64,000 nucleotides of DNA, taken from positions 434,001-498,000 of the forward strand of contig CAWUHX010000062.1 in assembly GCA_963922205.1 (NCBI GenBank). The letters are read 5' to 3'. The notes beneath the pieces are model-generated. The model did not search any database, was not told the DNA's origin, and was given only the letters and a program-made list of their open reading frames with translations. This DNA comes from Romanomermis culicivorax. Lineage: Eukaryota > Nematoda > Enoplea > Mermithida > Mermithidae. Positions 1,246-40,311 of the stretch are shown in pieces; the first letter of the stretch is position 1, and the number at the start of each line of letters is the position of its first letter. The translations under genes and the position numbers were made by a program.

Positions 1246-3650
1246 CTTTAAACTAGATTCCTAAAAGTGTAAAGTGGCAAAATTTGTATACTTGTGTAAT
1301 AAACTTTGGCGGGCCATAACTCACTCAAAAATGTTGCTACAGCATTATAAATTATATTTTCGAATAGATCACGAAGAGATCTATCGATTGATACCCATAT
1401 TATAGGTCTTTTAAATTTTTTATAGGACCTAATCTTCAAAGCCAAATTTACACTCTTTGTAAAGTGTGTATTAAATTTTCAATGTCGATAACTCTCCCAA
1501 AGATGAAGCTACACAATTCCAAATTATATATTTGCATAGAGCTCAATGAGACCTATCGATTGATACCAAATTTGTCGCTTTTTCAAAAAAAATTCAAGCC
1601 ACAATTGGGATAACGCTCAAAATGTGTAAAGTAGAAAAATTGGCATACTTGTGTAATAAACTTTGGCAGGCAATAACTCACTCAATAATCGTGCTAGACC
1701 ATTATAAATTATATTTTTGAATAGAGCTCAAAGAGATCTATCGATTGATACCCATATTACAGATCTTTTACGAATAAGAATTTTTTATAGGAATCGCTAT
1801 TCGACCTAATCTTCAAAGCCAACTTTACACTCTTTGTAAAGTGTCTATTGAATTGTCAATGTCGACAACTCTCTAAAAAAATGAAGCTACGCATTTTTAA
1901 ATTATATATTTGCATAGAGCTCAAAGAGATCTATCGATTGATATCAAACTTGTCCCTTTTTGTAGAAAATTTCAAACCAGAACTGGGATAAAAGTCAAAA
2001 TTGTGTAAAGTAGCAAAAATTTGCATACTTGTGTAATACACTTTGGCGGGCGATAACTCACTCAAAAATGTTGCTACACCATTATAAACTATATTTTTGA
2101 ACGGATCTCGAAGAGATCTATCGATTGATACCCATATTATAGGTCTTTTACGAATAAAAAAATTTTATAGCACCTAATCTTTAAAGCCAAGTTTACACTC
2201 TTTGTACAGTGTCTATTAAATTTTCAATGTCGACAACTCAACCAAACATGAAGCTACACAATTTTAAATTATATTTTTGGATAGAGCTTAATGAGACCTA
2301 TCGATTCATATCAAACTTGTCCCTTCTTGTAGAAAATTTCAAGTCAGAACTGGAATAAAAGTCAAAATCGAGTAAAGTAGCAAAAATTTGCATACTTTGT
2401 AAATTGTGTAATAAACTTTGGCGAGCCATAACTCTCTCAAAAATCATGCTACACCATTATAAACTATATTTTTGAATAGATCACGACGAGATCTATCGAT
2501 TGATACCCATATTATAGGTCTTTTACGAATAAAAGAATCTAATAGTACCTAATCTTCAAAGCCAAATTTACACTCTTTGTAAAGTGTGTATTAAATTTTC
2601 AATGTCGATAACTCTCTAAAAAATGGAGCTACGCATTTTTAAATTATATATTTGCATAGAGCTCAAAGAGATCTATCGATTGATATCAAACTTGTCCCGT
2701 TTTGTAGAAAATTTCAAGCCAGAACTGGGATAAAAGTCAAAATTGTGTAAAGTAGCAAAAATTTGCATACTTTGTAAATTGTGTAATAAACTTTGGCGGG
2801 CGATAACTCTCTCAAAAATCATGCTACACCATTATAAACTATATTTTTGAATAGATCACGACGAGATCTATCGATTGATACCCATATTATAGGTCTTTTA
2901 CGAATTAAAAAATCTAATAGTACCTAATCTTCAAAGCCAAATTTACACTCTTTGTAAAGTGTGTATTAAATTTTCATCGTCGATAACTCTCTAAAAAATG
3001 GAGCTACGCATTTTTAAATTATATATTTGCATAGAGCTCAAAGAGATCTATCGATTGATATCAAACTTGTCCCGTTTTGTAGAAAATTTCAAGCCAGAAC
3101 TGGGATAAAAGTCAAAATTGTGTAAAGTAGCAAAAATTTGCATACTTTGTAAATTGTGTAATAAATTTTGGCGAGCCATAACTCTCTCAAAAATCATGCT
3201 ACACCATTATAAACTATATTTTTGAATAGATGACGACGAGATCTATCGATTGATACCCATATTATAGGTCTTTTACGAATAAAAAAATTTTTATAGGACC
3301 TAATCTTCAAAGCCAAATTTACACTCTTTGTAAAGTGTCTATTAAATTTTCAATGTCGTTAACTCTCTAAAAAATGAAGCTACGCATTTTTAAATTATAT
3401 ATTTGCATAAAGCTCAGAGAGATCTATCGATTGATATCAAACTTGTCCCGTTTTGTAGAAAATTTCAAGCCAGAACTGGGATAAAAGTCAAAATTGTGTA
3501 AAGTAGCAAAAATTAGCATACTTTGTAAATTGTGTAATGAACTTTGATCGTCGATAACTCTCTCAAAAATGAAGCTACGCCATTTAAAATTATATTTTTG
3601 GATAGAGCTCAAAGATATCTACCGATTGATACCCATATTATAGGTTTTTG
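1246..3650 (+). repeat. Two-box satellite array A (~186-bp monomer, ~372-bp dimer)
   Basis: About 13 monomers. The box-B tail CTATCGATTGATA recurs near 1381, 1553, 1738, 1928, 2116, 2490, 2676, 2869, 3050, 3242 and 3424, with variants elsewhere. Two monomer types alternate: one ends in ACCCATATTATAGG and the other in ATATCAAACTTGTCCC, giving a ~372-bp higher-order unit. Each monomer has box A (ATAACTCnnTCAAAAAT-like) and, 60 nt further, box B, a dyad around GAGATCTAT. I measured 60 nt at 1316/1376, 1488/1548 and 2053/2113. Open frames across it (such as minus 1248-1445 and 3424-3612) are products of the repeat. Confidence 0.9.
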
Positions 3651-4029
3651 TTAGATTTTTTTGGCCAAAATCCACAACTGGAAATAATCTAATAAAATGT
3701 AAAAATACAAAATTTTAAACCCATAGATGGGTTGGTGTAAACATGTGTTCATCAGATCATTCAAGCTTCGGTGACCAAAGTGTAAAATTGCCTTCTAAAC
3801 TTCGAACGGTCGTATCATGAGTCTGTCAAAACAAAAATTTAGTCATTTTAAATTCAATTTTTTCGAATAGATCTTCGCTTTACACTTTACAGTGTAAAGT
3901 TAGTATTTGCTCGTTTATTAATTGTAAACCTTTTCAGGCAAAAATTTTGAACAAAACAAAAAATTTGAATTTTCGGCGCAACGTTACCCGGAAATGGGAA
4001 ATTTAAGCACAATGTAAACATTTGTTATA
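3651..4029. other. Spacer between the inverted arrays A and B
   Basis: AT-rich DNA separating two arrays of the same family in opposite orientation. It contains a degenerate solitary copy near 3805-3885 (a GTCTGTCAAAA word and a GAATAGATCTTCG word) and several GTAAA/TTTAC words. No coding signal is seen. Confidence 0.5.
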
Positions 4030-5190
4030 TAGAATGTAAAGCAAATTTTAATCTTTTTACATATTGTAAACTTTCAAAAAGTGTTAACTGAGCTAAAATG
4101 CTTTTTCCTCCAAAAAGGCGAGAAAATGGATATCATTCGATAGATCTGGTTTAAAGCTGTTCAAAAATATAATTTAGAATAGTCGATGTCTAAAATAAAA
4201 AAATGTAAAGCAAATTTTAATGTTTTTACACATTGTAAACTTTTAAAAAGTTTTAAACTGAGCTAAAATGCTTTTTCCTCCAAAAAGCAAGAATATGGGT
4301 ATCAATCGATAGATCTGGTTGAGATATGTTCAAAAATATGATTTAAAATGGTCGATGTCTAAAATTATAAAATGTAAAGCAAATTTTAATCTTTTTACAT
4401 ATTGTAAACTTTTAAAAAGTGTAAACTGAGCTAAAATGCTTTTTCGTGCAAAAAGGCGACAATATGGATATCAAACGATAGATCCCGTTGAGATATGTTC
4501 AAAAATATGATTTAAAATGGTCGATGTCTAAAATTATAAAATGTAAAGCAAATTTTAATCTTTCTACATATTGTAAACTTTTAAAAAGTGTAAACTGAGC
4601 TAAAATATTTTTTCCTCCAAAAAGGCGATAATATGGGTATCAAACGATACATCTCGTTGAGATATGTTCAAAAATATGATTTAGAATGGTCGATGTCTAA
4701 AATTATAAAATGTAAAGCAAATTTTAATCTTTTTACATATTGTAAACTTTCAAAAAGTGTAAACTGAGCTAAAATATTTTTTCCTGCAAAAAGCAACAAT
4801 ATGGGTATCAAACGATAGATCTCGTTGAGATCTGTTCAAAAATATGATTTAAAATGGTCGATGTCTAAAATTATAAAATGTAAAGCAAATTTTAATCTTT
4901 TTACATATTGTAAACTTTTAAAAAGTGTAAACTGAGCTAAAATACGTTTTCTTCCAAAAAGGCGATAATATGGGTATCAAACGATAGATCTCGTTGAGAT
5001 CTGTTCAAAAATATGATTTAAAATGGTCGATGTCTAAAATTATAAAATGTAAAGCAAATTTTAATCTTTTTACATATTGTAAACTTTTAGAAAGTGTAAA
5101 CTGAGCTAAAATGCTTTTTCATGCAAAAAGGCGACAATATGGGTATCAATCGATAGATCTCGTCGACATATGTTCAAAAATATGATTTAA
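4030..5190 (-). repeat. Two-box satellite array B, inverted relative to array A (~170-bp unit)
   Basis: About seven units beginning AAATGTAAAGCAAATTTTAA near 4033, 4203, 4372, 4543, 4709, 4878 and 5047. Each carries GGTATCAATCGATAGATCTC, the exact reverse complement of the box B plus tail in array A. On the minus strand the spacer ACCATT..TAAA..ATATTTTTGAA also aligns with array A, so this is the same family. Box A is decayed to ATAATTTTAGACATCG, about 51 nt from box B instead of 60. Confidence 0.88.
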
Positions 5191-6499
5191 AATGGTAATT
5201 TTCCATTGAAAAAAAAAGTTCAAACTATTCCAAAATATGTAAATTTCATACTGTAAAATTTTCAACATATGTTTTCCAACAAAAACGTGTTTTTTTTTAT
5301 TTTCTAAACAACAACAACATCTGTCTACATTTTTCAGTAGGGAAAAAAGAACCGAATCAATCATAATTGTTTAATTAGCTTTGTGTGTGTGTGTTTGCGT
5401 GAAAAAAGAAAATCGATAACCATAAATGAGGATGGAAAAAAAGAAAATTAGAAAATGTTATCATCACCAACATTTTCAATTCCCGGAGCAAGCTTTTGGC
5501 GTTTGCCCGGTGGCGACAAATATCATATTATTTCCAAACGCCCCTCGAAATGAACAGTTGTATATCAAAATTGCCCAGAATCCAGTTAATTTGGATCGGT
5601 TGCGATAAGTGTTCCCCGGGCGCCGTTGGCCGGTTTACTGTAGGATTTACGGGTTTTTTCCCGCTTTTTTCTCTCCTCGGAGCTAATTAGACTATAGAAA
5701 CATATGCTTTAATTAGTGTTTAGTAAATTTTACATAATGTATATATATATATCTACAGTAGGATTACAGTAAGACTGTAAAAATACCGGCAGGTTCTATT
5801 TTTTTTATGCTCTAAAATAATGTCAGACACGAAATTTATATAGCAAGGAGAAGGGTGGAGACACCAACAAAAAAAATTCTCTCTCTCTCTTGATTAATGA
5901 ACATGGGGAAAAAAAGAGCAAATACTAAACTTGATTATGTTTTCTAAAATGTATACACAATAATGTTTACGGGTATACTGTAGATAGATGGAGCAACGGC
6001 AAAAAAATCGGGGCCATTTCCCGGATATCAAGAAAACGTGTCGTAAGTGGGCAAGTTTTAAGTTTCGTCGTTTATGTTCGTGATGTGCCAAGCAAAAGAA
6101 AAAAAAAATTTCCCCCCTATTCCTTAAAACATTCATCATTTCGGGGCCTAGGTAGGAGAAAATTTTTCGCCCTTTTTCTCCCAAAAACTGTTAAACTTTT
6201 CATTTTTACGAGCTTCACCCCGGCTTGTTAAGACAAACAAACATCAATTTTATAATATTGTGTTGTCGTTTTTTTTTCTTTATCTTGTAAAAGTGGTGCT
6301 CGGTACACAACAAGTTTTACGGCCCGGCAACCTACATACGCCATATTTTATCACTTTATAGAAATAGATAAGACGAAATTCGCAAGAAAAAAAAATTTCA
6401 AATTTCCTACAGTAAAAACGTCATCAAATTTCCTAAATTCCAAAACTTGACGCTAAAAATCTTCGTAGAGCCACAAAAAAAAACCATATAGAAGAACCA
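5191..6499. other. Intergenic single-copy DNA, no gene seen
   Basis: AT-rich, with homopolymer runs, a (GT)n tract at about 5381-5396, a (TA)n tract near 5740-5752 followed by several TACAGTA/TACTGTA words (5751-5780), and a (CT)n run near 5878-5891. Short open frames (5426-5608 plus, 5894-6184 minus) lack domains and are not supported. Confidence 0.5.
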
Positions 6500-7470
6500 A
6501 AGGTCAGAGGAATTAACATCCAACATTGTAGAAATCTAGAACTTTCCAGGAAAATGCAGCAGCTCAAATGTACCTGCACATCATATTACATGATCATACT
6601 ATATCAATAGAGATGAAAATCCAAATCCACGTTACCCGGAACTTTTCACGAAACCAAATCCAGAGAATTCCAAATGCAGCTTAGACATTACTATATTATA
6701 GAAAATCATGCAAGTTTCTAGAACTTTTTGGGAAAATGCAGTACATCAAATGTACCTGAACATCATATTACATGATCATACTGTAAGATATGCATCAATA
6801 GATAGCAAATAACCCATTTCGATTACCCGGATCCGAATAACTCCAAATGCGCTTTAGACATTTCAATGATAGAATATCATGGAAGTTGCTACAACTTTCC
6901 AAGAAAATGTTAAATGTACCTGCACATCACACTATGTGATCATACTGTAAGATTTATATTGAATAAAGATGAAAATTCGGATACACGTTACCCCCAACTT
7001 TTCAGGATTTGGATCCAGAAGAAGCATTTTCAAATATCTGAGTAGCAAAGAACTTGCCGGATGCGGATAATTCCAAATGCACTTTGGAAGTTTCTAGAAC
7101 TTTCCAGGAAAATGTTAAATGTACCTGCACATCATATTACATGATCATACTGTAAGATATGTATCAATATAGAGCTGAAAATATGGATCCATGTTACCCG
7201 GAACTTTTCAGAATCTGCATCCAAAAGATGCATTTTCAACTACCTGGATCCGGATAATTCCAAATGCACTTTCGAAGTTTCTAGGACTTTCAAGGAAAAT
7301 GTTAAATCTACCTGCACATCATATTACGTGATCATACTGTAAGATTTATATCGAATAGAGATGAAAATTCGGATATACGTTACCCCCAACTTTTCAGGAT
7401 TTGGATCCAGAAGAAACATTTTTAACATATTTGGATAGCAAAGAACCCATTTCGACTACTCAGATGTGAA
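6500..7470 (+). repeat. Tandem repeat (~170-210 bp) with heat-shock-element-like core
   Basis: Five diverged units. The anchor CCTG(C/A)ACATCA(T/C)A recurs near 6571, 6747, 6921, 7128 and 7312, each followed by a TGATCATACTGTAAGAT-like block, a GTTACCC(G/C) block and a GGATAATTCCAAATGC block. Just before the anchor most units carry TTCTAGAACTTTCCAGGAA or a variant. The copy at 7092-7104 is a perfect TTCnnGAAnnTTC heat-shock element; those at 6534, 6716 and 7275 are imperfect. An inverted copy of the same unit lies at 9901-9966 inside the Iroquois gene, where it forms part of a heat-shock/TATA module. The array lies 3-prime of the Iroquois gene. Confidence 0.8.
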
Positions 7471-7693
7471 TAATTCCAAATGCAGTTTACACATAACTGG
7501 TGGCAAACCTGTAAGAACTCTGGGCGGTGACAAATCCAAAATTTGGGTATTTAGGTACCAAAATTTCCAAAATTTTGGACTAGAGTCAAAAAAATTGCAA
7601 AAATTTAGATTTTTCCCCAAAAAGCTACTTTTTCCCATTTTTTTTGTTTCATTTCACTATGCAATTTTGGGTGAATTCCTTCCACATGCCTGC

Positions 7694-11100: not shown

Positions 11101-14100
11101 ACAAAAAATGGTCAAAAACGTCAATTTTGTCAGCACTTTGCGCCATAAGTAAATATTTTATCCTTTTTTAGACAAAAATTACTACTTTTTAAACCGTTTT
11201 TCGCACATTTTTCATGGAAAAAATCGAATTTTTTTCCTTAAGGGACCCCTCCCCCCCAAAATTTTGGGAATTACTGACCCCCGGCCCCAAAAAAGTGCTC
11301 CGACCCCCCCCCCCCAGACCTCGGAGCTCCGTTACATGTTACATTTTCTGCAGAACTTCATACAAATTGAAATGATTGTCATGGTTGCGAATCTAGATCT
11401 GTGATCGGATTCGGGTCCCGGGGCGTGCGTCCTGGTACCAGTCTGCAGAATTTTCCACATGGGAGGGTCCACGGATTTTTCATCCAGGAGCAAGGTGGGT
11501 AAACAAAAAAAATTCCACAAGCGAAAAACAAAAAAAAAGTTCCAGGGCGGGGGTGTTTCACGAATTTTTTGGCCAGGAGGGGGTGACCAGGTTTAGCCCC
11601 CCCCCGCCTATGTGCTCTATGCTGGTCCCCCATTCCTTCCTCGAGCAACAATCCTCAAGCCCAGATGTTGAAAAATTTTTCCATATAGTCTAAGTAAAGG
11701 ACACCCCGTCAATATATGTATATATTTCCTAATAATCCTGTTTAATCGGCGCTCGTAAAAAGGCGCAGTGGTGCGCCCCGTGTGTGTAGAAACGGGAGTA
11801 GGGATTTTTTATGGCGGCCAAGCCAATAAGTGCTAGGTATAATGATGTCTTTACCTCTCCGGTTTTATATAAAGTGCCTTCTTTTAGTGCCTAGTGCGTT
11901 TATAATAAGTGGTTGGTGGTGCTGCTGCTAATAATATATATAACACACACACAACTGTATATAATATAATATATATAATCCGAACCAAAGAATCCATTAC
12001 TCTCTAAAACTAGTCCGGCCAACTGAAAAAGAAAATTTACAGTTACTAATACCACTAGCGCAATGTGTTATACATACATAACAAAATTATTTATGTACAG
12101 TAATCTTGTTCCACTTTTTCTTACAGTAAATTCCTTTTTACAGGTGTTGTTTGCTCCAAATTTTTTGTCGACGTGTATATTAGTCTCCTTATCGATAATT
12201 TTCCACTCGGTCTATTTTATATTTTATGAGTGATAAGAAGGCAGCACATTTTGGAAAAATCTAGGCGCCGGCCCGGCTTACTGTAGCAATTTGCATAACG
12301 TGCCCGGCATGTAGAATAATCTTGCTTTTTAGTTAATATGCGCAATTGTGTGTCTGCACCTAGTTAAAATGTTGCTAAGAGAAAGGAGAAACTGGTAGAA
12401 GTTTATTTACATAAGGATTTTAGATTGGGCACTTTTCAAAACTGCGCATATAGAGTTAATCTAGTTTGAAAAGCGATGATGATGATTGAATAATAATTTT
12501 TCAATATATACATAAATACAGTCGGCAAAAAAAAAATCCCTTTTCTCTTGTGTTTAAGTTTTATGATGTAAGAGAGTTAGTTATGCGCAAACATAAACTT
12601 GGAGGGCAAAAAGCTACAGTAAGACGAAATATACTGTATTATTACAAAAAAAATCAAGAATCAAGTTGTGAAATAGTTTTTCTTTACTTGACGATATCTA
12701 TCGAGTAGTGTAAATTGTTTCTGTTTAGTTTACACTCGATAAATATTTTGGTGTAAACTTGAATATAAACTAGTTCTAATTAACTTAAATTTGCTATAAC
12801 TCGGTCAAAAATTGAGATACAAATTTGAAAAGCATACCAAAACATGTAACTCAACGAGATCTATGGACCAGTGTAAATTGTTTTTAAAATTAACAACTTG
12901 CTAGTCTTTTATGGATTAAAATGGGTTTTGACGAATATTTCGGTGTAAACTTATTAAAACTTCCGCTTGTTAAATATAAACTTGTTCGAGTTACTTAAAT
13001 TTGCTATAACTCAGTCAAAAATCAAATCCAACTTTGAAAAGTATACCAAAAGATGTAACTCAACGAGATCCATGGGCCAGCGTAAATTGTTTCCAAAATT
13101 AACAATTTTCTCGTCTGTTATGCATTAAAATTAGTCATTAGTTTACACTTGATAAATATTTTGGTGTAAACTTATTAAAACTTGCATTTAAACTTGTTCG
13201 AATTTATCTAAATTTGCTATAACTCGGTCAAAAATTGAGATACAAATTTGAAAAGCATACCAAAACATGTAACTCAACGAGATCTATGGACCAGTGTAAA
13301 TTATTTCTAAAATTAAAAATTTGTTCGTCTGTTATTGATTAAAATAAGTCATTATTTTACACTTGATAGATATATTGGTGTAAACTTACTTAAATTTGCT
13401 ATAACTCAGTCAAAAATCCAAATCCAACTTTGAAAAGTATACCAAAAGATGTAACTCAACGAGATCCATCGGCCAGCGTAAATTGTTTCCAAAATTAACA
13501 ATTTTCTCGTCTGTTATGCATTAAAATTAGTCATTAGTTTACACTTGATAAATATTTTGCTGTAAACTCACTTAAATTTGCTATAACTCAGTCAAAAATC
13601 AAAATCCAACTTTGAAAAGTATACCAAAAGATGTAACTCGACGAGATCTATCGACGAGTGTAAATTGTTTCCAAAATTAACAATTTTCTCGTCTGTTATG
13701 CATTAAAATTAGTCATTAGTTTACACTTGATGAATATTTTAGTGCAAACTTATTATAACTTACTTAAATTACTATATCTCAGTCAAAAATTGAGATCCGA
13801 CTTTGAAAAGTATACCAAAAGATGTAACTCGACGAGATCTATCGATTAGCGTGAATTATTTTCAAATTCGACAATTTGGTAGAGAAAAAATTATACTTAA
13901 AATAATATATAGTCATTTTCGAAAAAAAATGAAGAAAATTGTCATATTTCAATGCATTATATTTGACAGGAGAAGACGTCGAAAAATTTATGGAGAAATG
14001 TAAATCGGCGGGAATTACGCTTTGGTGTAAACTTAATATAACTTCCGGTTGTTAAATGTAAAGTTTTTCGAAATAACTTAAATTTGCTATATCTCAGCTA

Positions 14101-15350
14101 AAAATTGAGATACAGTTTTGAAAAGTATACCAAAAGATGTAACTCAACGAGATCCATCGATCAGTGTGAGTTATTTTCAAATTTGACAATTTTCGGTGGT
14201 GTTATTGCAAAAAAATCACTAAAATGGATTTTCGATTGATAATTTTCAGATACAAAAAAATACAGTTTAAACTTCATGAAAAAGTGTTAATAAATGAGAA
14301 GTGACCTCGAAAAGCTCATCCGCAGATGTAAATCGGCGAGATTTACCCGTTAGTGTAATTTTTTTTTTGAAAATATCAACTTATTTTAATATTTCGGTGA
14401 AAAATCATTATTAAACTTTAAAATTTATACGACTAGAATCAACTCGACGAGATCTAGAATTTAGTGTAAATTAATTTACAATTTTCGAGGAATTTACACC
14501 CCAAAAAAAATCCCATCATGCGCTCACTTGAGTCAACGTCATTTTGGTTACGATGGCCAAAAATATTTTTTCGCCTTTGGTCGGGTAAGGGTTTTTCCTA
14601 TGTTCGAATAGCCACGATTTTAAAGCGGCCGTCGTTTCGCGCGTGGCGTTCTTGCGCCGCGCCCCGTTTATATCCAAATGGCCGCCGAATCTTAAGTTTA
14701 CAAAACGTTTGTGGTTTAAAGCTAAATCAAAGCGTTTAGTGTAAACTAGCTATTTACCTATCGTGGTAGGGGAATGGCGACGGGAAACACGGGTCGTAGT
14801 AGAACGGGGGCAACATCGGTTGGCCCGGTGCCAAGGCGCCGGATAGATGGTCGTGTTTAAGGTCTAGAGGCTAAAAAAAAAGAAAATTAAAAACTTTGAC
14901 CGGTCGTAATTCCGTCAAAAATTGAGTTAGAGCTTTTTTGAGCATATTTTTGAATAGATCTCGACGAGACCTATCGATTGATACCCAATTTATTAGGTTT
15001 TCGAGAGGAAAAAAATTCAGGGCACGACCAAGGAGTGCTTTCGACAACTCGCGACTCACCGTTCCCGTCAACGGCGGCCCGCCGAAATAGTTCATCGACG
15101 GCGGCGGTGGCGGCGGCAAACCCGGCGGATGATTATGATGATGATGAGGTAACGTTCTAAAAGCGTCGGCCGCCGTTAACGACGACGGCGGCGCTATAGT
15201 CGGCGCCAAGGCCATTTTAGACGGCGACGGACCGGCGGCGTCGTTCCGCGACGACGACGGTACGACGCCCAAAAATGGCGCCAAGGACGAAGCGGCGCCG
15301 GCGGCCGCGGCGTTGTGCAACGAGGCCAAATACCTCAATTCGTCGGACAT
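7694..15350 (-). CDS. irx-1: Iroquois-class TALE homeobox transcription factor, 5 exons, 457 aa
   Basis: Reconstructed join on the minus strand: 15350-15060, 14870-14758, 14690-14528, 9635-9308, 8172-7694 (1374 nt including TAA). All introns start GT and end AG and phases agree (0, 2, 0, 1). Residues ~145-208 form the homeodomain: [18 protein letters not shown] (helix 1), the TALE loop NPYPTKGEK at 168-176, [15 protein letters not shown] (helix 2) and [17 protein letters not shown] (recognition helix, with the Ala typical of Iroquois after WF). The upstream DINGA and downstream MTWSPRNR also match the class. After it come an acidic run (217-229), an Asn run, and KIWSIAD at 335-341, like the KIWSLA motif of other Iroquois proteins. 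The N-terminus is Ala-, His- and Pro-rich. Family role: nuclear DNA-binding patterning factor. Exons are GC-rich, unlike everything around them. C. elegans has a single Iroquois gene, hence the symbol. A possible AATGAA poly(A) variant lies at 7653-7648. The start is the first ATG of the Ala-rich exon; no trans-splice acceptor is obvious. Confidence 0.88.
8300..9159. mobile_element. Non-autonomous hAT-like DNA transposon (MITE) in intron 4 of the Iroquois gene
   Basis: The ends are imperfect 15-bp terminal inverted repeats: CAGGGGCGTAGCGAG at 8300-8314, and CTGGCTACACCCCTG at 9145-9159, whose reverse complement matches at 13 of 15 positions. They are flanked by an 8-bp target-site duplication with one mismatch (CCTATGAC at 8292-8299, CCTACGAC at 9160-9167). 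CAGGGG ends with 8-bp duplications are typical of hAT elements. The 860-bp interior has no transposase-like frame, so it would need transposase in trans. It lies wholly inside the intron and does not touch the splice sites. Confidence 0.85.
9308..9635 (-). CDS. irx-1: Iroquois gene exon 4 (residues 190-298, recognition helix and acidic tail)
   Basis: Starts after the acceptor TTTACAG (ending 9636) with [20 protein letters not shown], the recognition helix of the Iroquois homeodomain. SPRNRSGE and an acidic run (four Asp, Leu, seven Asp), an Asn run and a Ser/His-rich stretch follow, ending near [16 protein letters not shown]. The donor is A|GTAGGT at 9308/9307. It leaves phase 1, which matches exon 5; the next GT downstream (AG|GTTTGA) would give the wrong phase. 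The Asp and Asn runs come from GAC and AAC trinucleotide repeats and may vary in length between individuals. Confidence 0.87.
9701..9852. repeat. Two direct copies of a hairpin-forming ~53-bp module
   Basis: Copy 1 (about 9701-9752) and copy 2 (about 9799-9850) each read GTACAGC(G/A)TCAATCAATA ... TATTGATTA ... AAAGTATATA. Within each copy AATCAATA pairs with TATTGATT; in copy 1 the outer AGTAC/GTACT extends the stem. They lie in intron 3 of the Iroquois gene just downstream of exon 3's partner junction side. No function can be read from sequence alone. Confidence 0.55.
9959..10052 (+). promoter_or_regulatory. Two perfect heat-shock elements followed by a TATA box (plus strand, antisense to the Iroquois gene)
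   Basis: TTCTAGAACCTTC at 9959-9971 and TTCTAGAATATTC at 10014-10026 both fit TTCnnGAAnnTTC, the binding site of trimeric HSF1, with several extra TTC triplets between them. TATATAAG lies at 10045-10052, about 20 bp after the second element, a normal distance for a heat-shock promoter. The left flank (9901-9966) is an inverted copy of the repeat unit found at 6500-7470, so the module belongs to a dispersed element. Helitron transposons are known to spread heat-shock elements in Caenorhabditis, but I did not identify Helitron ends here. No downstream coding frame is evident. Confidence 0.6.
10240..10395. repeat. Dispersed repeat copy 1 (GTGAAAAATAGAATTTTTTTCC family)
   Basis: A stretch with TTTTTTGGGTGAAAAATAG, AATTTTTTTCC, a C-run and AAAATTTCGGGAATTACTGACCCC. 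The same order of words recurs at about 11040-11325 and, without the C-rich part, at 15880-15990. It is probably a decayed transposon. No ends can be defined. Confidence 0.5.
10417..10880. repeat. ~185-bp tandem repeat with GATCCGTGATC core
   Basis: Three units near 10417, 10601 and 10775 share AATTTAGCTA, a TTTTTTGCA(G/C)TT-like block, TGATGCAAACT and AATC(T)AGATCCGTGATCAGATT, then GGGCGTGGATCCGGGTA. A fourth partial unit lies at about 11335-11440 (ATTTTCTGCAGAACTTCATAC, then GATCTGTGATCGGATTCGGG). It lies in intron 3 of the Iroquois gene. No coding content is seen. Confidence 0.65.
11040..11325. repeat. Dispersed repeat copy 2, with C-rich runs
   Basis: Related to 10240-10395 and 15880-15990 through GTCAAAAACGTCAATTTT, AAAAATTACTA(C)TTTTT, AATCGAATTTTTTTCCTT and AATTTTGGGAATTACTGACC. 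It carries long C-runs at about 11249-11257 and 11305-11317. These runs and the neighbouring CCATATGG words (10957-11025) suggest a decayed transposon, but I find no paired termini. Confidence 0.5.
11441..12659. other. Intron 3 single-copy stretch, no feature called
   Basis: AT-rich intronic DNA with (TA)n/(CA)n tracts near 11928-11985 and several TACAGTA/TACTGTA words (12052, 12098, 12125, 12280, 12617). I see no exon-like GC-rich codon bias and no RNA gene. Confidence 0.45.
12660..14500 (+). repeat. Two-box satellite array C (intron 3 of the Iroquois gene)
   Basis: About eight units of 175-220 bp. Box A reads ATAACTC(G/A)GTCAAAAAT at 12796, 13006, about 13220, 13400 and 13574. Box B reads AACTC(A/G)ACGAGATC(T/C)AT with GAGAT at 12856, 13065 and so on, that is 59-60 nt after box A starts. 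The DNA between and around the boxes (GTAAATTGTTTCCAAAATTAA, TTGGTGTAAACTTA) is unlike arrays A, B or D. The unit therefore kept only the boxes in common with them. The array is sense-reversed relative to the host gene. Confidence 0.85.
14528..14690 (-). CDS. irx-1: Iroquois gene exon 3 (residues 135-189, homeodomain first half)
   Basis: Encodes (R)[10 protein letters not shown], then [40 protein letters not shown] and TLTQ. It ends CAA|GTGAGC (14528/14527). It covers homeodomain helices 1 and 2 with the three-residue TALE loop extension (PYP). The acceptor is the weakest point of the model. ACTTAAG at 14697-14691 keeps the phase and gives a 67-nt intron. The alternative ...GATTTAG (acceptor near 14722) would break the frame with exon 2. 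Compared with most Iroquois proteins, helix 1 has WLFEH where WLNEH is usual, and helix 2 has EKIFLAIV where EKIMLAII is usual. Confidence 0.86.
14758..14870 (-). CDS. irx-1: Iroquois gene exon 2 (residues 98-134)
   Basis: A 113-nt exon after the acceptor TTTTTTTTAG (14880-14871). It encodes [20 protein letters not shown] followed by [17 protein letters not shown], a Pro/aromatic segment like the region N-terminal to other Iroquois homeodomains. It ends with two bases (AG) before the donor GTAAAT at 14757. An in-frame TAA follows at once, so this exon must be spliced. It is too short to stand out as an open frame and was found by translating between exons 1 and 3. Confidence 0.8.
14896..14988 (+). 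repeat. Solitary two-box monomer in Iroquois intron 1
   Basis: GTAATTCCGTCAAAAAT (box A, starting 14906) and GAATAGATCTCGACGAGACC (box B, GAGAC starting 14966), 60 nt apart, then TATCGATTGATACCCAA. It fills about half of the 189-nt intron 1. A minus-strand frame runs through it ([11 protein letters not shown]) as a continuation of the exon 1 frame, but the exon 1 donor and the match to intergenic arrays show it is intronic. Confidence 0.82.
15060..15350 (-). CDS. irx-1: Iroquois gene exon 1 (residues 1-97)
   Basis: Begins [20 protein letters not shown] and continues through an Ala/Pro/Ser-rich stretch, a His run (HHHHNH) and a Pro run to [11 protein letters not shown]. The frame stays open past the donor, but the donor ACG|GTGAGT at 15060/15059 matches the consensus and leaves phase 0. 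Reading through would instead enter an intron that contains a satellite monomer. Strong GC-rich third-position bias marks it as coding. The low-complexity N-terminus is usual for the class and has no catalytic role. Confidence 0.85.
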
Positions 15351-16500
15351 TAATTGGATAATTTTGGATATTTTGGATTTTTAGAAAAAAAAAACAATTG
15401 AAAAAATTTCGACCACCCGCGGCGACCGTAAAAAATACTGTAGTAAATAAAAACCTTTCAAGCAAAAATCTGAAATGGAAAAATTTTGATTTGTAAACCG
15501 ACTTTTGTAGAACCTAAACTCGACGGGACAAGAATTGTGCGGTGGAAAAAAAATGAAAAGTTAATAAAGAACAGTAGTTGACAATAAATCATAAAAGTAA
15601 TGTACAAGATTACTGTAGGACGAGCGGCGAATTTTTTTTTTTTTTTGGTCCTTTAGTCGCGTTGTGTTATATCGTAAATTTTTTCGAACAAACATGCGTG
15701 CGTCGATTTAATTTTTAAGGTCGAAAAATTTTCGATTCACGGGCGTCAAAAAAATGGAATTTTTTTGTCGAAAATCGTTTTGAGCGGGTCAAAAATGAGC
15801 GTTTTAAGGCGAAAAAGCGCCGAATTTTTCTCGCTCTGGGGGATCCCGGCTGGATTTTTTGTAAATTTTTGATTAGAGAAAATCATCAAAAACGTCAATT
15901 TTCTCGCCGCTTCGAGTTTTTAAAGAGAAAAATTACTATTTTTGGAATTTTTTTGGGTGAAAAAATCGAATCTTTTTTCCTTGCTTTTATACCCAAAACC
16001 CTTCGTAAATCCATTAAAAACGCAACTTTACACTTTTTTACATAAAAACCTTTTTAAACCAATTTCGCCCATAAAACCAAAATTGTTGTTTTTCGCGTGT
16101 AAGAGCGAAAAATGACGATGATAAAATGACAAAATATTCACAAAACATAAGCGGCCGAATTTTCCACGTTATAGTTTTTAGTTTAGGGGAAAAAAATAGA
16201 ATATTTAGTCGAAAAGAGACGAGAAAGAAAAGATGTTATCAGCGCAATTATCTACCACTTAAAATGTTGTTCCCCGCGAAATGAGTGCTGCTAAACTACT
16301 AGCTAAATTGGCCTTCAAAAAAAAAAAAGAAGGAAAAAGTGGCGAAATTCTCGCCTCGAGCTACAGTATGAAAAACCGGCCGGATATAAATAATACGGAT
16401 GAATATTTGTCATAAATTTTAAAAATTGCACATTCCTCGTGTAAAAGAGGAATTTTCGGGAATAGTTGTAGAAAGTTGGAGGCTCGAAAATAACTTTTTT
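15351..16500. other. 5-prime flank of the Iroquois gene
   Basis: A presumed promoter region upstream of the ATG at 15350. It contains T/A homopolymers (15629-15645 and others) and TACTGTAG words (15438, 15612), with a third copy of the dispersed repeat (15880-15990: AAAACGTCAATTTTCTCG, AAAATTACTATTTTT, GGGTGAAAAAATCGAATC). I cannot point to a TATA box or spliced-leader acceptor with confidence. Confidence 0.45.
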
Positions 16501-17229
16501 GGAGCTTTTTAAATTAAAAAGTAGATTTTTCTACCTAAAAATGCTTAAATGTCGTTTAAAAACAAAAGAAAATCTTATTAAAACGTCCTTAAATCCATTT
16601 TTCGCTCGTCCGGCAACTCTTAGAAATTTTAAAATCGCTCAAAATTTGCGAAAAAACCACTGTCGAATTTTGTCTTTTCCCAAATTTCGGAGCAAAAACG
16701 ACTCGACGATTTTAAATCGGATCAAAAACCAACAAAAAACCCAACTTCGAAATTTATCAACATTTTAAAAACTCCGCTCGCGAAAAACAACGAAAATTGA
16801 AAAATTCGCGAAAAAAAACATTGCCGAATTGAGTTTTTTCCACAAATTTCGGTGGAAAAACGATTCAAAACATTAAAATCGGCTAAAAAACCGAAACTGA
16901 TCATGAAAAATACGGTAAATTTTTCGCTAGAAAGCAATAAATTTACTACAAAAATTATTTCCGAATGGTATATTCAATCAAAAAAGATTCAAAACGGCTA
17001 AAAAATCCAAACTAATTTTGAGAAATATGGCGAATTTTTCGCTAAAAATCATTGAATTTACGTAAATTGGTGTTTTCCGTTATATTTCCCGCAAAAAAAA
17101 GAAAAAAAAAACCGAAATCATTTTTTTTCGCTCAAAAATTTTCCACGGAAATAGAAACGACAATTTAGTTTAAAAAATTTCATATTTCGCTAAAAATAAC
17201 GACGTAAAATTTACAACAAAAAAAACCGC
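16501..17229. other. A-rich spacer, diverged relatives of the next array
   Basis: A-rich DNA with scattered GCTAAAAA and AAAACGA words, grading into the tandem array that follows. The frames at 16499-16768 (plus) and 16722-16937 (minus) are composition artefacts. No gene is seen. Confidence 0.45.
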
Positions 17230-19760
17230 TGATAAATCTTAAATTTGGGAGAAATCGATTCAAAGGGACGCAAAGCCTTGATTTTTGAAATTTCGTGCTT
17301 AAAATCCATGGGAAATTTTTTTTTAAATATCAAATTTTGTTTTAAAAAATCGTCAAAAAGCCAAATTTTCTATGGAAAAAATCGCCAAAAAGTCAAATTT
17401 CTCGTCGACCATCATATTATCTTTAAATTTAAAAAATACAAATTAAGCGAAAAGTAAGCATCGGCAAAGCAATAAATGAAGTTTTTAATTAAATTTCCGG
17501 GAAAAAATCTATTTAGAAGATGATTTTTTCAAATTTCGTGCTGAAAATTTGGTTAAAAAATCAAATTGTCTATCGAAAAAATCGGCAAAAAAGCCAAATT
17601 CTGTATGGAAAAAACCGCCGAAAAGCCAAATTTTTTATGGAAAAAATCGCTAAAAAGCCAAATTTTCTATGGAAAAAATCGCCAAAAGGCCAAATTTTTT
17701 ATCGAAAAATCGCCAAAAAGCCAAATTTCTAGTCGAACATCATATTATCTTTGAATTAAATTAGATTTTAAAAATACGAATAAGCGGACAATTAAGCGCG
17801 GAAAGGCGTCAATGAATAAACTTTTGAAGTAAATTCCTGAAAAAAAAATCTATTTAAAAGAAACAAAAGGCCTCGATTTCGAAATTTCACGCTAAAAAAT
17901 TGGTTAAAAAATCAAGTTTTCTATCGAAAAAATGGTTAAAAAGCCAAATTTTCTAGCGAAAAAATCGACAAAAAGCCAAATTCCTAGTCGACCATCATAA
18001 TATTATCTTTGAATAAAAAATAGAAATTAAGCAAAAAGTAAGTCTCGGGAAAGCGCTAAAAAATAACGTTTTCAATTAAATTCGCCAAAAGAAAATGATT
18101 CTCGATCTATTTTTGAAATTTCGCCCTGAAAATCGATGGAAAGTTTGGTTTAAAAAGTAAATTTTCTACGGGAAAAAATGGCCAAAAAGCCAAATTTTAT
18201 GCGGAAAAAGGCAAATTTCTCGTCGACCAGAATAAAAAAAAATACAAATTAAGCGCCGGGAGAGTGCAAGTTTTCAACGAAATTTCCAGAAAAAACGCTC
18301 TTTTTCTAATTTCACGCTGAAAATCAGTGAAAAATTTAATAAAAAAGTGAATAAATGGCCAAAAAGCCGAATTTTCTACAGGAAAAAATTCGCCAAAAAG
18401 CCAAATTTTATGCGGAAAAAGGCAAATTTCTCGTCGACCAGAATAAAAAAAAATACAAATTAAGCGCCGGGAGAGTGCAAGTTTTCAATGAAATTTCCAA
18501 AAAAAAAACGCTCTTTTTCTAATTTCACGCTCAAAATCGATGAAAAATTTGATTAAAAAAATGAAAAACTCGCCAAAAAGCCAAATTTCTCGTCGTGAAA
18601 ATCGCCAAAAAGCCAAATTTTATGTGGAAAAAGGCAAATTTCTCGTCGACCAAAACAAAAAAAAAATACAAATTAGGCGCCGGGAGAGTGCAAGTTTTCA
18701 AAGAAATTTCCAGAAAAAACGCTCTTTTTCTAATTTCACGCAAAAAAAAAATACAAATTAAGCGCCGGGAGAGTGCAAGTTTTGAATGAAATTTCCAAAA
18801 AAAAAACGCAATTTTTGTAATTTCGCGCTCAAAAATTTGATAAAATAATGAAAAAATCGCTAAAAAGCCAAAGTTTGTGCGAAAAAAGGCAAATTTCTCG
18901 TCGACCAGAATAAAAAAAATACAAATTAAGCGCCGGGAGAGTGCAAGTTTTCAATGAAATTTCCAAAAAAAAAAACGCTCTTTTTGTAATTTCGCGCTCA
19001 AAAATTTGATAAAAAATGAAAAAATCGCCAAAAAGCCAAATTTCTCGTCGACCGGAATAAAAAAAAATTAAAATTAAGCGCCCGGAGAGTGCAAGTTTTC
19101 AATGAAATTTCCAAAAAAAAAACGCTCTTTTTCTAATTTCGCGCTCAAAATCGATGAAAAATTTGATTAAAAAAAAGAAAAAATGGCCAAAAAGCCAAAT
19201 TTTATGTGGAAAAAGGCAAATTTCTCGTCGACCAGAATAAAAAAAAATAGAAATTAGGCGCCGGGGAGTGCAAGTTTTCAATGAAATTTCCAAAAAAAAC
19301 GCAATTTTTGTGATTCCGCGCTCAAAAATTTGATTTAAAAAATGAAAAAATCGCCAAAAAGCCAAATTTTATGCGGAAAAAAGGCAAATTTCTCGTCGTG
19401 AAAATCGCCAAAAGGCCAAATTTCTCGTCGAGCAGAATAAAAAAAAATACAAATTAAGCACCGGGAGAGTGCAAGTTTTCAATGAAATCTCCAAAGAAAA
19501 GACGCTCTTCTTCTAATTTCACGCTCAAAATCGATGAAAAATTTGATTAAAAAAAAGAAAAAATGGCCAAAAAGCCAAATTTTGTGCGGAAAAAGGCAAA
19601 TTTCTCGTCGACCAGAATAAAAAAAAAATAGAAATTAGGCGCCGGGGGAGTGCAAGTTTTCAATGAAATTTCCAAAAAAAACGCTCTTTTTCTAATTTCA
19701 CGCTGAAAAATTTGATTAAAAAAATGAAAAAATCGCCAAAAACACCAAATTTCTGGTAAC
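17230..19760. repeat. Tandem array of GCCAAAAAGCCAAATTT / CTCGTCGACC units
   Basis: Units of roughly 170-210 bp carry GCCAAAAAGCCAAATTT, TTTCTCGTCGACCAGAATAA, ATACAAATTAAGCGCCGGGA, GAGTGCAAGTTTTCAATGAA, then CGCTCTTTTTCTAATTTC. GCGCCGGGAG-type anchors lie near 18254, 18463, 18678, 18762, 18930, 19258 and 19640. Units lengthen or shorten by duplicating the GCCAAAAAGCC submodule (17340-17730). There is no coding content; short plus-strand frames reflect the submodule. Confidence 0.85.
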
Positions 19761-22310: not shown

Positions 22311-22329
22311 CACATAAAACGGTTGAAAA

Positions 22330-25000: not shown

Positions 25001-25009
25001 TCAAGCTAG

Positions 25010-25105
25010 AAAGCATGTTTTTACTATATTTCGAAAGATTTCGTTTGGATCTGTCCAAAAATTTATATCTTTAAATGTTGTAGGTCCATTTTTGACCAAG
25101 TTAAT
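25010..25105 (-). repeat. Degenerate two-box monomer
   Basis: On the minus strand ATTAACTTGGTCAAAAATGG (box A-like, from about 25107) is followed about 62 nt later by ACGAAATCTTTCG (box B-like). It is weaker than the array copies and is recorded as a likely old member of the family. Confidence 0.4.
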
Positions 25106-25129
25106 AACGTTCGAGAATTTTTTGTCACA

Positions 25130-26350
25130 TAAAAACGAGCTACAGTAAAAAAAATTGTCAGATGAAATTGAGCTACAGTAAGAAAAATTGTCACATGAAA
25201 ATAAACTACAGTAAGAAAAATTGTCACATGAAAAAAGACTACAGTAAGAAAAATTTTCACATGAGAATAGCTACAGTAAGAAAAATTGTCGCACGAAAAG
25301 AGCTACAGTAAGATGAATTGTCGCATGAAAAAAAGCTACAGTAAGAAAAATTGTCACAAAATAAGCTACAGTGTCACATGAAACAGTAAAAAATTGTCAC
25401 ACGAAAATATGCTACAGTAACAAAATGGTCAGATGAAAATAGCTACAGTAAAAAAAAGTGTCGCATGAAAATCAGCTACAGTAAGGTAAACTGTCACATG
25501 GAAATAGCTACAGTAAGAAACACGGAAATAGCTGCAGTAAAAAAAATTATCACATGAAATAAAGCTTCAGTAAAGAAAATTGTCACATAAAGATAAGCTA
25601 CAGTAAGACAAATTGCCACATAAAAATAAGCTACAGTAAGAACAATTGTCACATGAAAATAAGCTACAGTGTCACATGTAAATGAGCTACAGTAAAAAAA
25701 TTGTCGCATGGAAATGAGCTACAGTACAAAAACTGTCCAATGAACAAAACCTACAGTAAGAAAAATTGTCACATGAAAACAAGCTTCAGTAAGAAAAATT
25801 GTCACATGAAAAACAGGTACAGTAAGAAAAATTGTTACATGAGCATAGCTACAGTATGTCACATGAAGGTAAGCTACAGTAAGAAAAATTGTCACATGAA
25901 AATAAGCTAGAGTAAAAAAATTGTCAGATGAAAAACAGCTACAGTAAAAAAAGTGTCACATGAAAATCAGCTGCACTAATAAAAACTGTTACATGAGCAT
26001 AGCTACAGTATGTCACATGGAAATAAGCTACAGTAAGAAAAATTGTCAGATGAAAAACAGCTACAGTAAAAAAAGTGTCACATGAAAATCAGCTACAGTA
26101 AGGAAAACTCTCACATGGAAATAGCTACAGTAAGAAAAATTTGGACACTGAAATAGCTACAGTATGTCACATGGAAATAAGCTACAGTAAGAAAAATTGT
26201 CACATGAAAATAAGCTACAGTAAGAAAAATTCGTACAAGAGAATAGCTACAGTATGTCACATGGAAAAAAGCTACAGTAAGAAAAATTGTCACATGAAAA
26301 TCAGCTACAGTAAGAAAAATTATCACACGGAAATAAGCTACAGTAAGAAA
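25130..26350. repeat. 33-bp minisatellite: AAGCTACAGTAAGAAAAATT + GTCACATGAAAAT
   Basis: About 35 copies of a 33-bp unit with length variants where part of a unit is dropped. CTACAGTA is nearly invariant and the linker varies (GTCACATG, GTCAGATG, GTCGCATG). Because 33 is a multiple of three, the minus strand shows repeated YFHVTIFLTVA peptides in several frames, for example 26111-26434. They start and stop wherever unit length slips, so I treat them as a by-product. Confidence 0.9.
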
Positions 26351-26460
26351 ATCCAACTTTTCGTATAAGCAAATAAACAAAAGTTTGACGGATCCGGCTC
26401 CCCGACCGACACAAAGAAATTCATGTTCAAACAATCTTTATAAGCCTGGTAAGAATTTTT

Positions 26461-26479
26461 GTGTGTGTGTGTGTGTGTG
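26461..26479. repeat. (GT)n microsatellite
   Basis: Nine to ten GT repeats in a row at the edge of a single-copy stretch. Confidence 0.9.
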
Positions 26480-26999
26480 GAAAAGTAAACTTTTAAGCTA
26501 CAGTAGAATCGTGAGATAGCTTTTAGAAATTTTCACCACCCGAGCGGCTCCTCTTTCTTTCTTTTTCGCATAATGGTCACTTCCTATAGCCGAACAACAC
26601 TTGTTTACTGTACGATTTTTTCCAAGGATTATGATGATCAAAAAAATTTCGCCGATTTTTCCTACTGTATTTTCTATTTTCGGGTCGCCATTATCCCACA
26701 CTCGTCTTTGGGCTCGGCTCCCGGCGACCTTTGCGTCGTTGATACCGGCGTACTTGACACGCGGACACGGGGATTTTCCACTATGCAAATTAGGCTGAAT
26801 GTCCAAAATATAAATATATTGTTATCCTATTATTATATTATTGTCCGAGAGAGAGACGAGACAACACGAGTATGGCGGAATGCGATTGATGTGGTCAAGT
26901 TTTTTTTAGTATATGTAAAAGTGTCGTGTAGATTACTGTATTTTTCAGCTGGATATTACGTAATTTTGGAAAATGTGAAAAAAACAAATTTTTACATTA
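26480..26999. other. Single-copy spacer, no gene supported
   Basis: Contains TACTGTA words (26607, 26663, 26934) and a 158-codon plus frame (26573-27049) that runs into the satellite array. The frame lacks recognisable domains and has no codon bias, so it is probably chance. Confidence 0.5.
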
Positions 27000-28560
27000 G
27001 TTTCCATATTTGGAGAAAAATATGCACCAAAATGCATATAGATCGATAGATCTCGACGAGTTCTATCCAAAACTGCTTTTAAAATTATTGTATCTTAATT
27101 TTTGACGGAGTTATGACGATTATAAATTTTAAATTTAATTTTTCTCGATGACCTCGAAATCCAAATAATCGATATCATAATTTTATAATCCTAAATTTTC
27201 CAAAAATACAGCAAATTGCATATAGATCGATAGATCTCGACGAGTTCTATTCAAAAAACTTAATTAAATTACTGTATCTAAATTTTTGATGGAGTTATGA
27301 CGATAATAAATTTTTAAATTTCATTTCCTTCCGATGACCTCGAAATCCAAATAATCGATACCGTGATTTTATGATCCCGAATTTCTCAAAAAATTGCAAC
27401 AAATTGCATATAGATCGATAGATCTCGACGAGTTCTATCCAAAAAAATTAATTAAATTACTGTATCTTAATTTTTAATGGAGTTATGACGATTATAAATT
27501 TCAAATTTCAATTTTCTCGATGACTTCGAAATCCAAATAATCGATATCATGATTTTATGATCCCAAATTTTTCGAAAAATGCATTAAATTGCATATAGAT
27601 CGATAGATCTCGACAAGTTCTATCCTAAAAAGTGACTTAAAATACTGTATCTAAATTTTTGAAGGAGTTATGACGATTATAAATTTTGAATTTAATTTTT
27701 CCCGATGATATCGAAATCCAAATAATCGACATCATGATTTTATGATCCCAAATTTTTCGAAAAATGCAGCAAATTGCATATACATCGATAGATCTCGACG
27801 AGTTCTATCCAAAAAATGATCTAAAATACTGTATCTAAATTTTTTATAATGTTATGACGATTATAAATTTTAAATTTCATTTTTCTCGATGACCTCGAAA
27901 TCCAAATAATCGATATCATGAATTTATGATCGCAAATTTTCCGAAAAAATACATTAAATTGCATATAGATCGATAGATCTCGACGAGTTCTATCCAAAAA
28001 AGTTAATTAAATTACTGTATTTAAATTTTTGACGGAGTTATGACGATAATAAATTTTAAATTTCATTTTTCTCGATGACCTCGAAATCCGAATAAGCGAT
28101 ACCATGATTTTATGATCGCAAATTTTCCAAAATTGCATATAGATCGAATAGATCTCGACGAGTTCTATCCAAAAAAGATTAATTAAATTACTGTATCTAA
28201 ATTTTTGATGGAGTTATGACGATTATAAATTTTAAATTTCATTTTTCTCGATGACCTCGAAATCCGAATAAGCGATACCATGATTTTATCATCCCAAATT
28301 TTTCTGAAAATGCAACAAAAAGGATATAGATCGATAGATCTCGACGAGATCTATCCAACAATGCTATTTAAATTGCTGTATCTTTATTTTAATGAAGTTA
28401 TGATAACTCTAAAATTTTGAAATGATTTTTCTTAATGAGTTTAAATTCCTAATTTTGGATGTCGTGTGTTAATTTTTTAATCTCGCTCAAAATTTTCCAA
28501 TAAACGGTATAGATCGATAGATCTCGCCGAGTTCTATTCAAAAATACTAATTAAATTACT
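27000..28560 (-). repeat. Two-box satellite array D (~186-bp monomer)
   Basis: Nine monomers with (ATA)GATCGATAGATCTCGACG at about 27040, 27223, 27412, 27597, 27782, 27967, 28141, 28327 and 28510. On the minus strand box A is ATAACTCCGTCAAAAAT and box B GAACTCGTCGAGATCTATCG. Starts measured at 27114/27054 and 27298/27238 are both 60 nt apart. The rest of the unit (TTCTCGATGACCTCGAAATC, CAAATAATCGATATCATGAT) has no counterpart in arrays A-C. Confidence 0.9.
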
Positions 28561-28649
28561 GTATGTTGATTTTTCGCAGACTTACAACAGTTGCAAAGTA
28601 TAAGATTGTGAACATGAAATTTGAAATCATGGATATCATATGATTCGAT

Positions 28650-40240: not shown

Positions 40241-40311
40241 TGCGTTAGCCGGGAATCGAACCCGGGTCGCCCGCGTGGCAGGCGAGCATTCTACCACTGA
40301 ACCACCAACGC
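40241..40311 (-). tRNA. tRNA-Gly (anticodon GCC), copy 2
   Basis: Identical over all 71 nt to copy 1, offset 1175 bp, within unit 2 of the tandem duplication. The anticodon is at 40279-40277. The flanks and T7 terminator (40239-40233) are also duplicated, so both copies should be transcribed independently. Confidence 0.96.

Follow-up and report, generated by a model that had tools for sequence, protein, structure and literature searches.

Highly divergent satellite DNAs (satDNAs) of Meloidogyne share a 17-bp motif resembling the CENP-B box (PMC3694981, PMC9673304), and in the parts of these reports available to us the unit is commonly of one of two lengths, one of them about 180 bp. In the M. 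incognita group, centromeric tandem repeats with a 19-bp box, described as short arrays of divergent families joined by one box, are associated with CenH3 (PMC9673304). The Cg_HINE Helentrons of the Pacific oyster are short non-autonomous mobile elements that contain satellite-like repeats, with varying combinations of flank and repeat (PMC7492417). The satellite families of Caenorhabditis are mostly species-specific (PMC4595182), and MITE-derived satellites are listed among the conversions of transposable elements to satellites (PMC6947457).

Here we consider a repeat family from a stretch of 64,000 nucleotides of the nematode Romanomermis culicivorax (the window). Like the Meloidogyne satDNAs, as far as the available parts of the reports describe them, it comprises divergent satellites of one nematode genome with common short conserved boxes, and the unit lengths are close to the 180-bp class. 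Unlike them, its core contains no CENP-B box, and the common part is about 125 bp long and also occurs as solitary copies and within a longer element. The arrays resemble the M. incognita group repeats in being short, divergent and joined by one box, a likeness drawn from the description of the 19-bp box; those repeats have a CenH3 association, whereas ours are known from sequence alone. As in the available description of Cg_HINE, the repeats are both satellite-like and located inside an element, and the combinations of flank and repeat vary, but the long element here has one core copy in each of the loci looked at, and its inverted ends are tentative. Dispersion and fast turnover are shared with the Caenorhabditis satellites and the transposon conversions, some of which are tied to Helitrons (PMC4595182, PMC6947457); a common core beneath unrelated linkers is not among the features described in the available part of the Caenorhabditis study (PMC4595182).

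The features of the window are as follows.

1296..3648, forward strand: array A, 13 core copies of two alternating monomer types (profile matches).
4116..5207, reverse strand: array B, seven partial core copies lacking box A, with a unit of 169 (profile matches, alignment, period).
12778..14456, forward strand: array C, eight core copies, the last one truncated (profile matches, reading frames).
14871..15059, reverse strand: intron of about 189 bp, 3' of the first coding exon of a homeobox gene (reading frames, GT..AG borders; exact first base placed by eye).
14886..14999, forward strand: solitary core copy (profile match, 78.6 bits).
14906..14922, forward strand: the solitary copy's box A, GTAATTCCGTCAAAAAT (box search).
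14954..14974, no strand assigned: imperfect palindrome ATAGATCTCGACGAGACCTAT with box B, GAGAC at 14966 (direct reading).
25031..25115, reverse strand: degenerate solitary core copy (profile match, 30.6 bits).
27021..28596, reverse strand: array D, nine core copies, unit about 185 (profile matches, box positions).

With at most three mismatches, box A has 39 matches in the window (shuffled mean 16.3; none of 100 shuffles reaches 39), and box B has 49 against 1.2. The core profile yields 42 matches at E<1e-3, of which 39 are the core copies of arrays A to D and the two solitary ones, and three are opposite-strand matches to the palindrome. Array A has a higher-order unit of about 375 bp (tandem repeat 1283–3649, period 375). 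An earlier note on this DNA described four arrays and one solitary copy sharing two boxes at a 60-nt spacing. The box and profile matches agree approximately with its array positions and bear out its box distances, including the 59 nt at 13006/13065, and the boxes are indeed shared, mostly at 60 nt, except that array B has no box A. The distance of about 51 nt assigned to array B, with a decayed box A, is meaningless: no box A can be aligned there, as the matches begin at model column 44 (six copies) or 40 (one copy) and box A occupies columns 26–42, the 3' half of the spacer being retained. Two copies of array D (28342, 27796) are also at 59. The degenerate copy at 25031–25115 was absent from the note.

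Array C sits between readable exons of the homeobox gene, and about 60% of the 189-bp intron consists of the solitary copy. The host gene is presumably a TALE-type, "Irx-like" homeobox gene; the exon has a partial match to Pfam Homeobox_KN (20.6 bits, below the cut-off of 24) and no match at E<=0.01 among solved structure chains.

Boxes A and B are the best-kept peaks of one continuous core of about 125 bp, which includes the spacer. At 31 loci, represented by 276 copies without gaps (gapped ones were omitted) of which many had been retrieved by exact boxes, conservation is continuous from about −15 to +105 relative to box A, and beyond these limits drops to 0.03–0.07 bits per column. Within the core, the spacer has mostly 0.60 bits per column, the left part of the palindrome 1.05 and the region 3' of box B 0.61. 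Box B is the right half of an imperfect 21-bp palindrome, ATAGATCTCGACGAGATCTAT. Thus, of the earlier picture of two words kept in unrelated sequence, the unrelated linkers stand and the unrelated spacer does not. In the window and 29 fetched loci, the core has 319 matches at E<1e-5.

In the whole genome, box A occurs 380 times (reversed control: 2) and the box B 16-mer 183 times (reversed control: 0). The core is found in three contexts: tandem arrays, solitary copies and a dispersed element of greater length (about 260 bp). All loci come from one genome. The search for arrays outside the window used exact boxes at 55–65 nt and would miss other spacings; among the array copies examined, 274 of 293, and 187 of the 206 not used as seeds, are at exactly 60, measured from three bases inside each box. 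Dispersed loci were chosen by box A alone, in list order, from 100 of the 380 places listed (60 loci, contigs C2–C94, excluding contig C62 and places already fetched). Box B is recognisable in 31 of the 60, with a spacing of 60 in 13 of these 31 and from 35 to 89 in the others. Free variation of spacing, which according to the earlier note would reduce the boxes to the slowest remnant of a young repeat, is therefore seen in dispersed copies, whereas in arrays the spacing is nearly fixed. Fourteen of the 60 loci were excluded because they could not clearly be assigned to this element (eight represent another repeat), leaving 46; a further 20 solitary-looking places were picked by box B from 100 of the 183 listed. 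Four solitary copies are intronic: the window copy, L020, L021 and L037.

At least 20 short satellite arrays have the module as their constant part: 28 runs of at least four core copies occur at 24 places, including two that are near repeats of others. The units are arranged head-to-tail, are about 100–400 bp long and similar within an array, as in satellite DNA. The linkers are essentially unrelated. When up to three near-median linkers per set were compared, only five pairs among 23 sets had any match at E<=1e-3, two of these pairs being near-duplicate loci. The unit lengths are nevertheless similar, with a median period of 158–206 bp in 22 of the 23 sets. The word CAGGGTGTCC adjoins the core in some arrays, in one orientation where seen; as a candidate end motif it was dropped for these two reasons.

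Homology of the dispersed copies extends from about −75 to +200. On a 306-column profile of this long element, built from the same 60 dispersed loci, 36 of 56 matches in these loci start at or before column 30, and 37 extend beyond column 215. The 309 matches in the window and array loci typically run from column 61 to 182 (10–90% range: starts 39–79, ends 155–195); 17 start by column 30, seven end past column 215 and none covers both ends. One of the 309 is the solitary L041, which runs from column 24 to 229; L041 and L038 contain more of the long element, and seven solitary copies (L002, L020, L021, L033, L037, L045, L047) are core-only with array-like limits. The word ACATCGGC is found at one limit of the homology and its inverse at the other. 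Within two mismatches, the 5' word occurs in 11 of 46 copies (exact in four; shuffled mean 2.7, maximum 8), and the 3' word in 10 of 46 (exact in three), which is not above shuffles (mean 6.4, maximum 13). The two-end pattern has one exact match in the genome and none when reversed. Tentatively, these words may be the inverted ends of the 260-bp element; no target-site duplication was seen by eye in three copies with both ends (L083, L106, L131), all of them divergent.

In the 46 dispersed copies picked by box A, agreement with the family consensus is 0.77 in box B, 0.77 in the left arm of the palindrome, 0.72 in the 3' half of the spacer and 0.59 in its 5' part; in the 20 copies picked by box B, it is 0.70 in box A (15 fixed positions), 0.65 in the 3' half of the spacer and 0.50 in its 5' part. 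The flanks have 0.45–0.65. Since agreement is higher in the boxes than in the 5' spacer and the flanks, mild constraint on the boxes at the source copies is plausible. The constraint beyond drift proposed in the earlier note gains support to this extent, but the 3' half of the spacer and, in the copies picked by box A, the left arm are nearly equal to the boxes. In 27 array runs, the substitution rate is 0.087 in box B, 0.104 in box A and 0.137 in linkers; the box rates are biased downwards by the use of exact boxes to find the arrays outside the window.

The palindrome and the TCAAAAAT/ATTTTTGA pair are both inverted repeats of the consensus and might fold in a transcript; transcript structure was one of the constraints that the earlier note had named. 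In 41 dispersed sequences (five of the 46 were dropped), 76.2% of cells are paired, compared with 34–42% when the partners are slid, a difference that any consensus palindrome would give; the shuffled value is 76.8%, and pairs with double changes number 3 against 4.8 in shuffles. We reject this explanation as highly improbable, since covariation is no higher than in shuffles. Compensatory changes above shuffles were thus not found, nor was an Rfam match at the boxes in the window, where gathering thresholds yield two tRNAs only. Pair counts on one-per-locus array sequences, from which gapped copies were omitted, are not evidence, because the right arm of the palindrome is fixed by ascertainment; the counts given above come from dispersed copies.

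The essential positions of the CENP-B box are TTCGNNNNANNCGGG. This candidate was rejected, as in 32 locus sequences the mean best mismatch is 3.44, against 3.52 in shuffles. The two-box pattern has no matches in viral and bacterial/archaeal collections, which hold no animal genomes. A 19-base core word has one match, in a Flavobacteriales assembly, and none in viral contigs; that match covers only columns 79–106 of the core profile and by arithmetic is at about chance level. A literature search by core words found no title on repeats.

The explanation we favour, with somewhat better than even confidence, is that a module of about 125 bp with one ancestor has been scattered, as solitary copies and within the 260-bp element, and repeatedly amplified into arrays with their own linkers. 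A copy of the module would be amplified in tandem together with some neighbouring DNA, each new array then consisting of the module and its own linker in units near 158–206 bp, so that the fixed 60-nt spacing would mainly be inherited. Hence we infer that the spacing mostly reflects shared ancestry and is not proof of function. Two observations count against this reading. The core limits are similar among the arrays, as expected of a discrete module but not of random in-place amplification of the longer element. No array was caught at birth, in that for none of the linkers was identity with a solitary copy's flank shown. That the long element, MITE-like with inverted ends, is itself the parent, each array being its amplified interior, is possible but doubtful. 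The homology beyond the core, the opposed end words and the single exact two-end match argue for it; matches at array loci that never cover both ends and seldom reach one, the core-only solitary copies and the lack of a visible target-site duplication in the three both-end copies argue against it. The additional occurrence of the core within this longer dispersed element lends partial support to the transposition mentioned in the earlier note.

Another explanation assumes no constraint at all, the boxes being a chance agreement among subfamilies of a plain remnant. The free decay of spacing and length in dispersed copies, the absence of covariation and the weakness of differences within arrays are consistent with this, but agreement along the core is uneven in both sets picked by the opposite box, which is unexpected under uniform neutral decay of one source, and on balance we consider a plain remnant improbable, without dismissing it. 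Somewhat less probable still seems a protein complex bound to two sites at a fixed helical distance, with selection on the arrays keeping the words and their spacing. The boxes of dispersed copies that outscore the 5' spacer and flanks, the palindromic box B, the spacing of the non-seed array copies and the rarity of indels per site per pair in the left arm (0.003) and box B (0.0015), compared with linkers (0.027), point to such binding. However, array B persists without box A, the spacing in dispersed copies is free, indels in the spacer (0.018) are not much rarer than in linkers, and box B evolves more slowly than the linker in 21 of 27 runs, yet does so in only two of the four window arrays, which are those not found through exact boxes. 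Under the favoured explanation, spreading copies would keep both boxes somewhat better, probably because these are read by a DNA-binding protein or the amplification machinery.

A more specific reading, which we regard as unlikely, takes the module for a sequence-specific chromatin seed, such as a pairing site or dispersed centromere in a nematode with holocentric chromosomes: a putative protein dimer would bind the palindrome, a nucleosome would be positioned by A/T tracts that recur in the core with a 10-bp phase, and arrays would be fixed only if module and linker amounted to about one nucleosome repeat, which would explain the nearly equal unit lengths despite unrelated linkers. The A/T tract power of the core at 10–10.5 bp is reached by none of 400 block shuffles for AA/TT and by 0.5% for AAA/TTT, in a post hoc comparison of sequences that share ancestry, with loci WB and WC omitted; across all tested periods the peak is not clearly outstanding (6.8% and 5.8%). 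There is little 10-bp power in whole arrays: the four in the window have 0.1–3.3, less than the values of 7.2 and 16.9 found at 10.5 bp in two of three control stretches.

In our reading, the family is a new satellite superfamily that belongs to a known kind and has arisen repeatedly from a dispersed module. Within one genome, a short module can be traced as a single copy, within a longer element and in some 20 satellite arrays, and therefore the birth of satellites and the convergence of their unit lengths become directly testable. If the boxes are bound in chromatin, the family would add to the reports of divergent nematode satellites that keep a protein-binding box.

The positions and distances of the two boxes, as listed in the earlier note, hold when re-read in the sequence. 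Box A has 39 matches in the window at up to three mismatches (shuffled mean 16.3; none of 100 shuffles reached 39), and box B has 49 (shuffled mean 1.2). In the genome (359 Mb, 595 contigs, the window being C62:434001-498000), box A alone occurs at 380 places against two for its reversed control, and the box B 16-mer at 183 against none for the control. The exact two-box pattern, with 55–65 nt allowed from box start to box start, is present at 96 places, while the reversed control yields none; counted from the list, the spacing is exactly 60 in 94 of them.

A core profile built from 87 of these places gave 319 matches in the window and 29 fetched loci (E<1e-5). Both boxes are covered in 293 matches, 274 of them with a spacing of exactly 60; once the seeds are set aside, the figure is 187 of 206. 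The information per column, with one vote per locus and the copies biased towards exact boxes, is 1.34 bits in box A, 0.60 in most of the spacer, 1.05 in the left part of the palindrome, 1.66 in box B and 0.61 after it, and only 0.03–0.07 beyond the core. Array B keeps the 3' half of the spacer and box B while box A is gone, hence box A is dispensable there; since the spacer columns are informative and this half is kept, the spacer belongs to the conserved unit. Box B is indeed common to the arrays, and box A to all but array B, but they do not stand in mostly unrelated sequence, as the earlier note had it: the spacer is also conserved, and the whole is one core.

Dispersed copies were picked by box A at 60 loci, from 100 listed of the 380 places, all outside contig C62. 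Box B (up to three mismatches, 20–124 nt away) was found in 31 and not in the other 29. The spacing is 60 in 13 of the 31, the others being 35, 43, 47 (two), 49, 53, 54 (two), 55, 57, 58, 59 (two), 61 (two), 62, 67 and 89. Among 20 fetched loci picked by box B, 13 have box A (up to four mismatches), seven at 60 and three at 61 (two of these copies being near-identical), with single cases at 47, 53 and 59. Thus the spacing, claimed to be fixed, is near-fixed in the arrays examined but varies in dispersed copies, which therefore show length decay as in ordinary old repeats. Rough capture-recapture from the box counts gives about 2,200 copies, a crude figure given that these counts depend on one another.

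The 46 copies selected through box A agree with the family consensus at 0.77 in both box B and the left arm of the palindrome, at 0.59 and 0.72 in the 5' and 3' spacer, at 0.56 upstream, and at 0.65, then 0.61, downstream. For the 20 copies selected through box B the agreement is 0.70 for box A over its 15 fixed positions, 0.79 for the left arm (partly fixed by the search word), 0.50 and 0.65 for the 5' and 3' spacer, 0.54 upstream, and 0.56, then 0.45, downstream. Both boxes are kept better than most other parts, yet on a broader conserved block. At eight loci (L062, L064, L065, L066, L089, L090, L099, L103) box A lies inside a TCGATAACTCgTTCAAAAATaatttcc-like stretch of a second repeat family without box B, which may reflect either kinship or coincidence.

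Within arrays, monomers were compared in 27 runs, two near-duplicate locus pairs included. Substitutions per site are 0.104 in box A, 0.087 in box B, 0.131 in the left arm, 0.137 in the linker, 0.151 downstream, 0.153 in the spacer and 0.171 upstream; indel events per site are 0.0015 in box B, 0.003 in the left arm, 0.013 in box A, 0.018 in the spacer, 0.023 downstream, and 0.027 both upstream and in the linker. Box B has a lower substitution rate than the linker in 21 of the 27 runs, those outside the window having been found via exact boxes, and in two of the four window arrays, found without such a search.

The core occurs in three contexts: in arrays, as solitary copies, and inside a longer dispersed element. 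Of 23 locus-strand sets (window arrays A and C pooled, B and D pooled, two near-duplicate pairs included), 22 have a median array period of 158–206 bp and one, almost without linker, of 125; the overall median is 180. Linkers (at most three per set) match between sets in five pairs, two of them duplicates, and those of different arrays are essentially unrelated. CAGGGTGTCC or a close form adjoins the core in arrays on contigs C5 and C224 and at the solitary copy L002 (L001 at about 1110, L030). Locus L001 also has a stretch near a run of N, which we take to resemble a cDNA adapter. Contigs C1–C61, seemingly the longest of the assembly, hold 2 of the 96 exact two-box places against 42 of the 100 box A places that come first in the list. 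Possibly arrays lie preferentially in repeat-rich regions or on certain chromosomes.

The solitary copy of the window takes about 60% of a 189-bp intron after the first coding exon of a minus-strand homeobox gene, and that of locus L037 a similar fraction of an intron of 165 bp (borders by eye). The gene is presumably Irx-like; the Homeobox_KN match of one homeobox exon is partial and sub-threshold. Words such as CTACAGTA and compact introns would suggest that the host is a nematode. The reverse complement of the core is on the gene sense strand in all four readable intronic solitary copies (14871-15059, L020, L021, L037), too few to claim a bias. Elsewhere in the window, two tRNA-Gly(gcc) genes with equal Rfam scores, 39066-39136 and 40241-40311 (-), probably lie in duplicated segments, and 15400-17500, outside the arrays, has a strong 10.5-bp AA/TT periodicity (power 16.9 against a background of 1.5).

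As to the longer element, sequence similarity among the copies selected through box A extends to about -75 and +200, with CACACATCGGCAG at one limit and GCCGATGTATG at the other, mutually inverted. These end words gave mixed results when tested; the two-ended pattern has one exact genome match, at which no target-site duplication is visible. The 306-column profile has 309 matches in the window and array loci, typically spanning columns 61–182; 17 start by column 30, seven end past column 215, and no match extends to both true ends, the broadest being that of the solitary copy L041 with columns 24–229. Divergent Meloidogyne satellites are described as having a short CENP-B-box-like motif in common (PMC9673304). 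Satellite units inside mobile elements are described for the oyster Cg_HINE (PMC7492417), and PMC6947457 lists MITE-derived satellites. A literature search by sequence words and keywords found no earlier report of the core, which is a weak absence.

Covariation in 41 dispersed copies, for the palindrome together with the TCAAAAAT/ATTTTTGA pair, does not exceed that of shuffles (76.2% paired against 76.8% shuffled; slid controls 34–42%), and a folded transcript is unsupported. The CENP-B box is absent from the locus sequences examined. We propose that a common ancestral module has spread in three forms, as lone copies, within the longer element and as array monomers, the 60-nt spacing being its inheritance. 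Arrays would have been born repeatedly by amplification of a module copy with local DNA, their units probably settling near one nucleosome repeat. In the copies that have spread, the boxes seem somewhat better preserved, and a DNA-binding protein reading the palindrome may perhaps be behind this.
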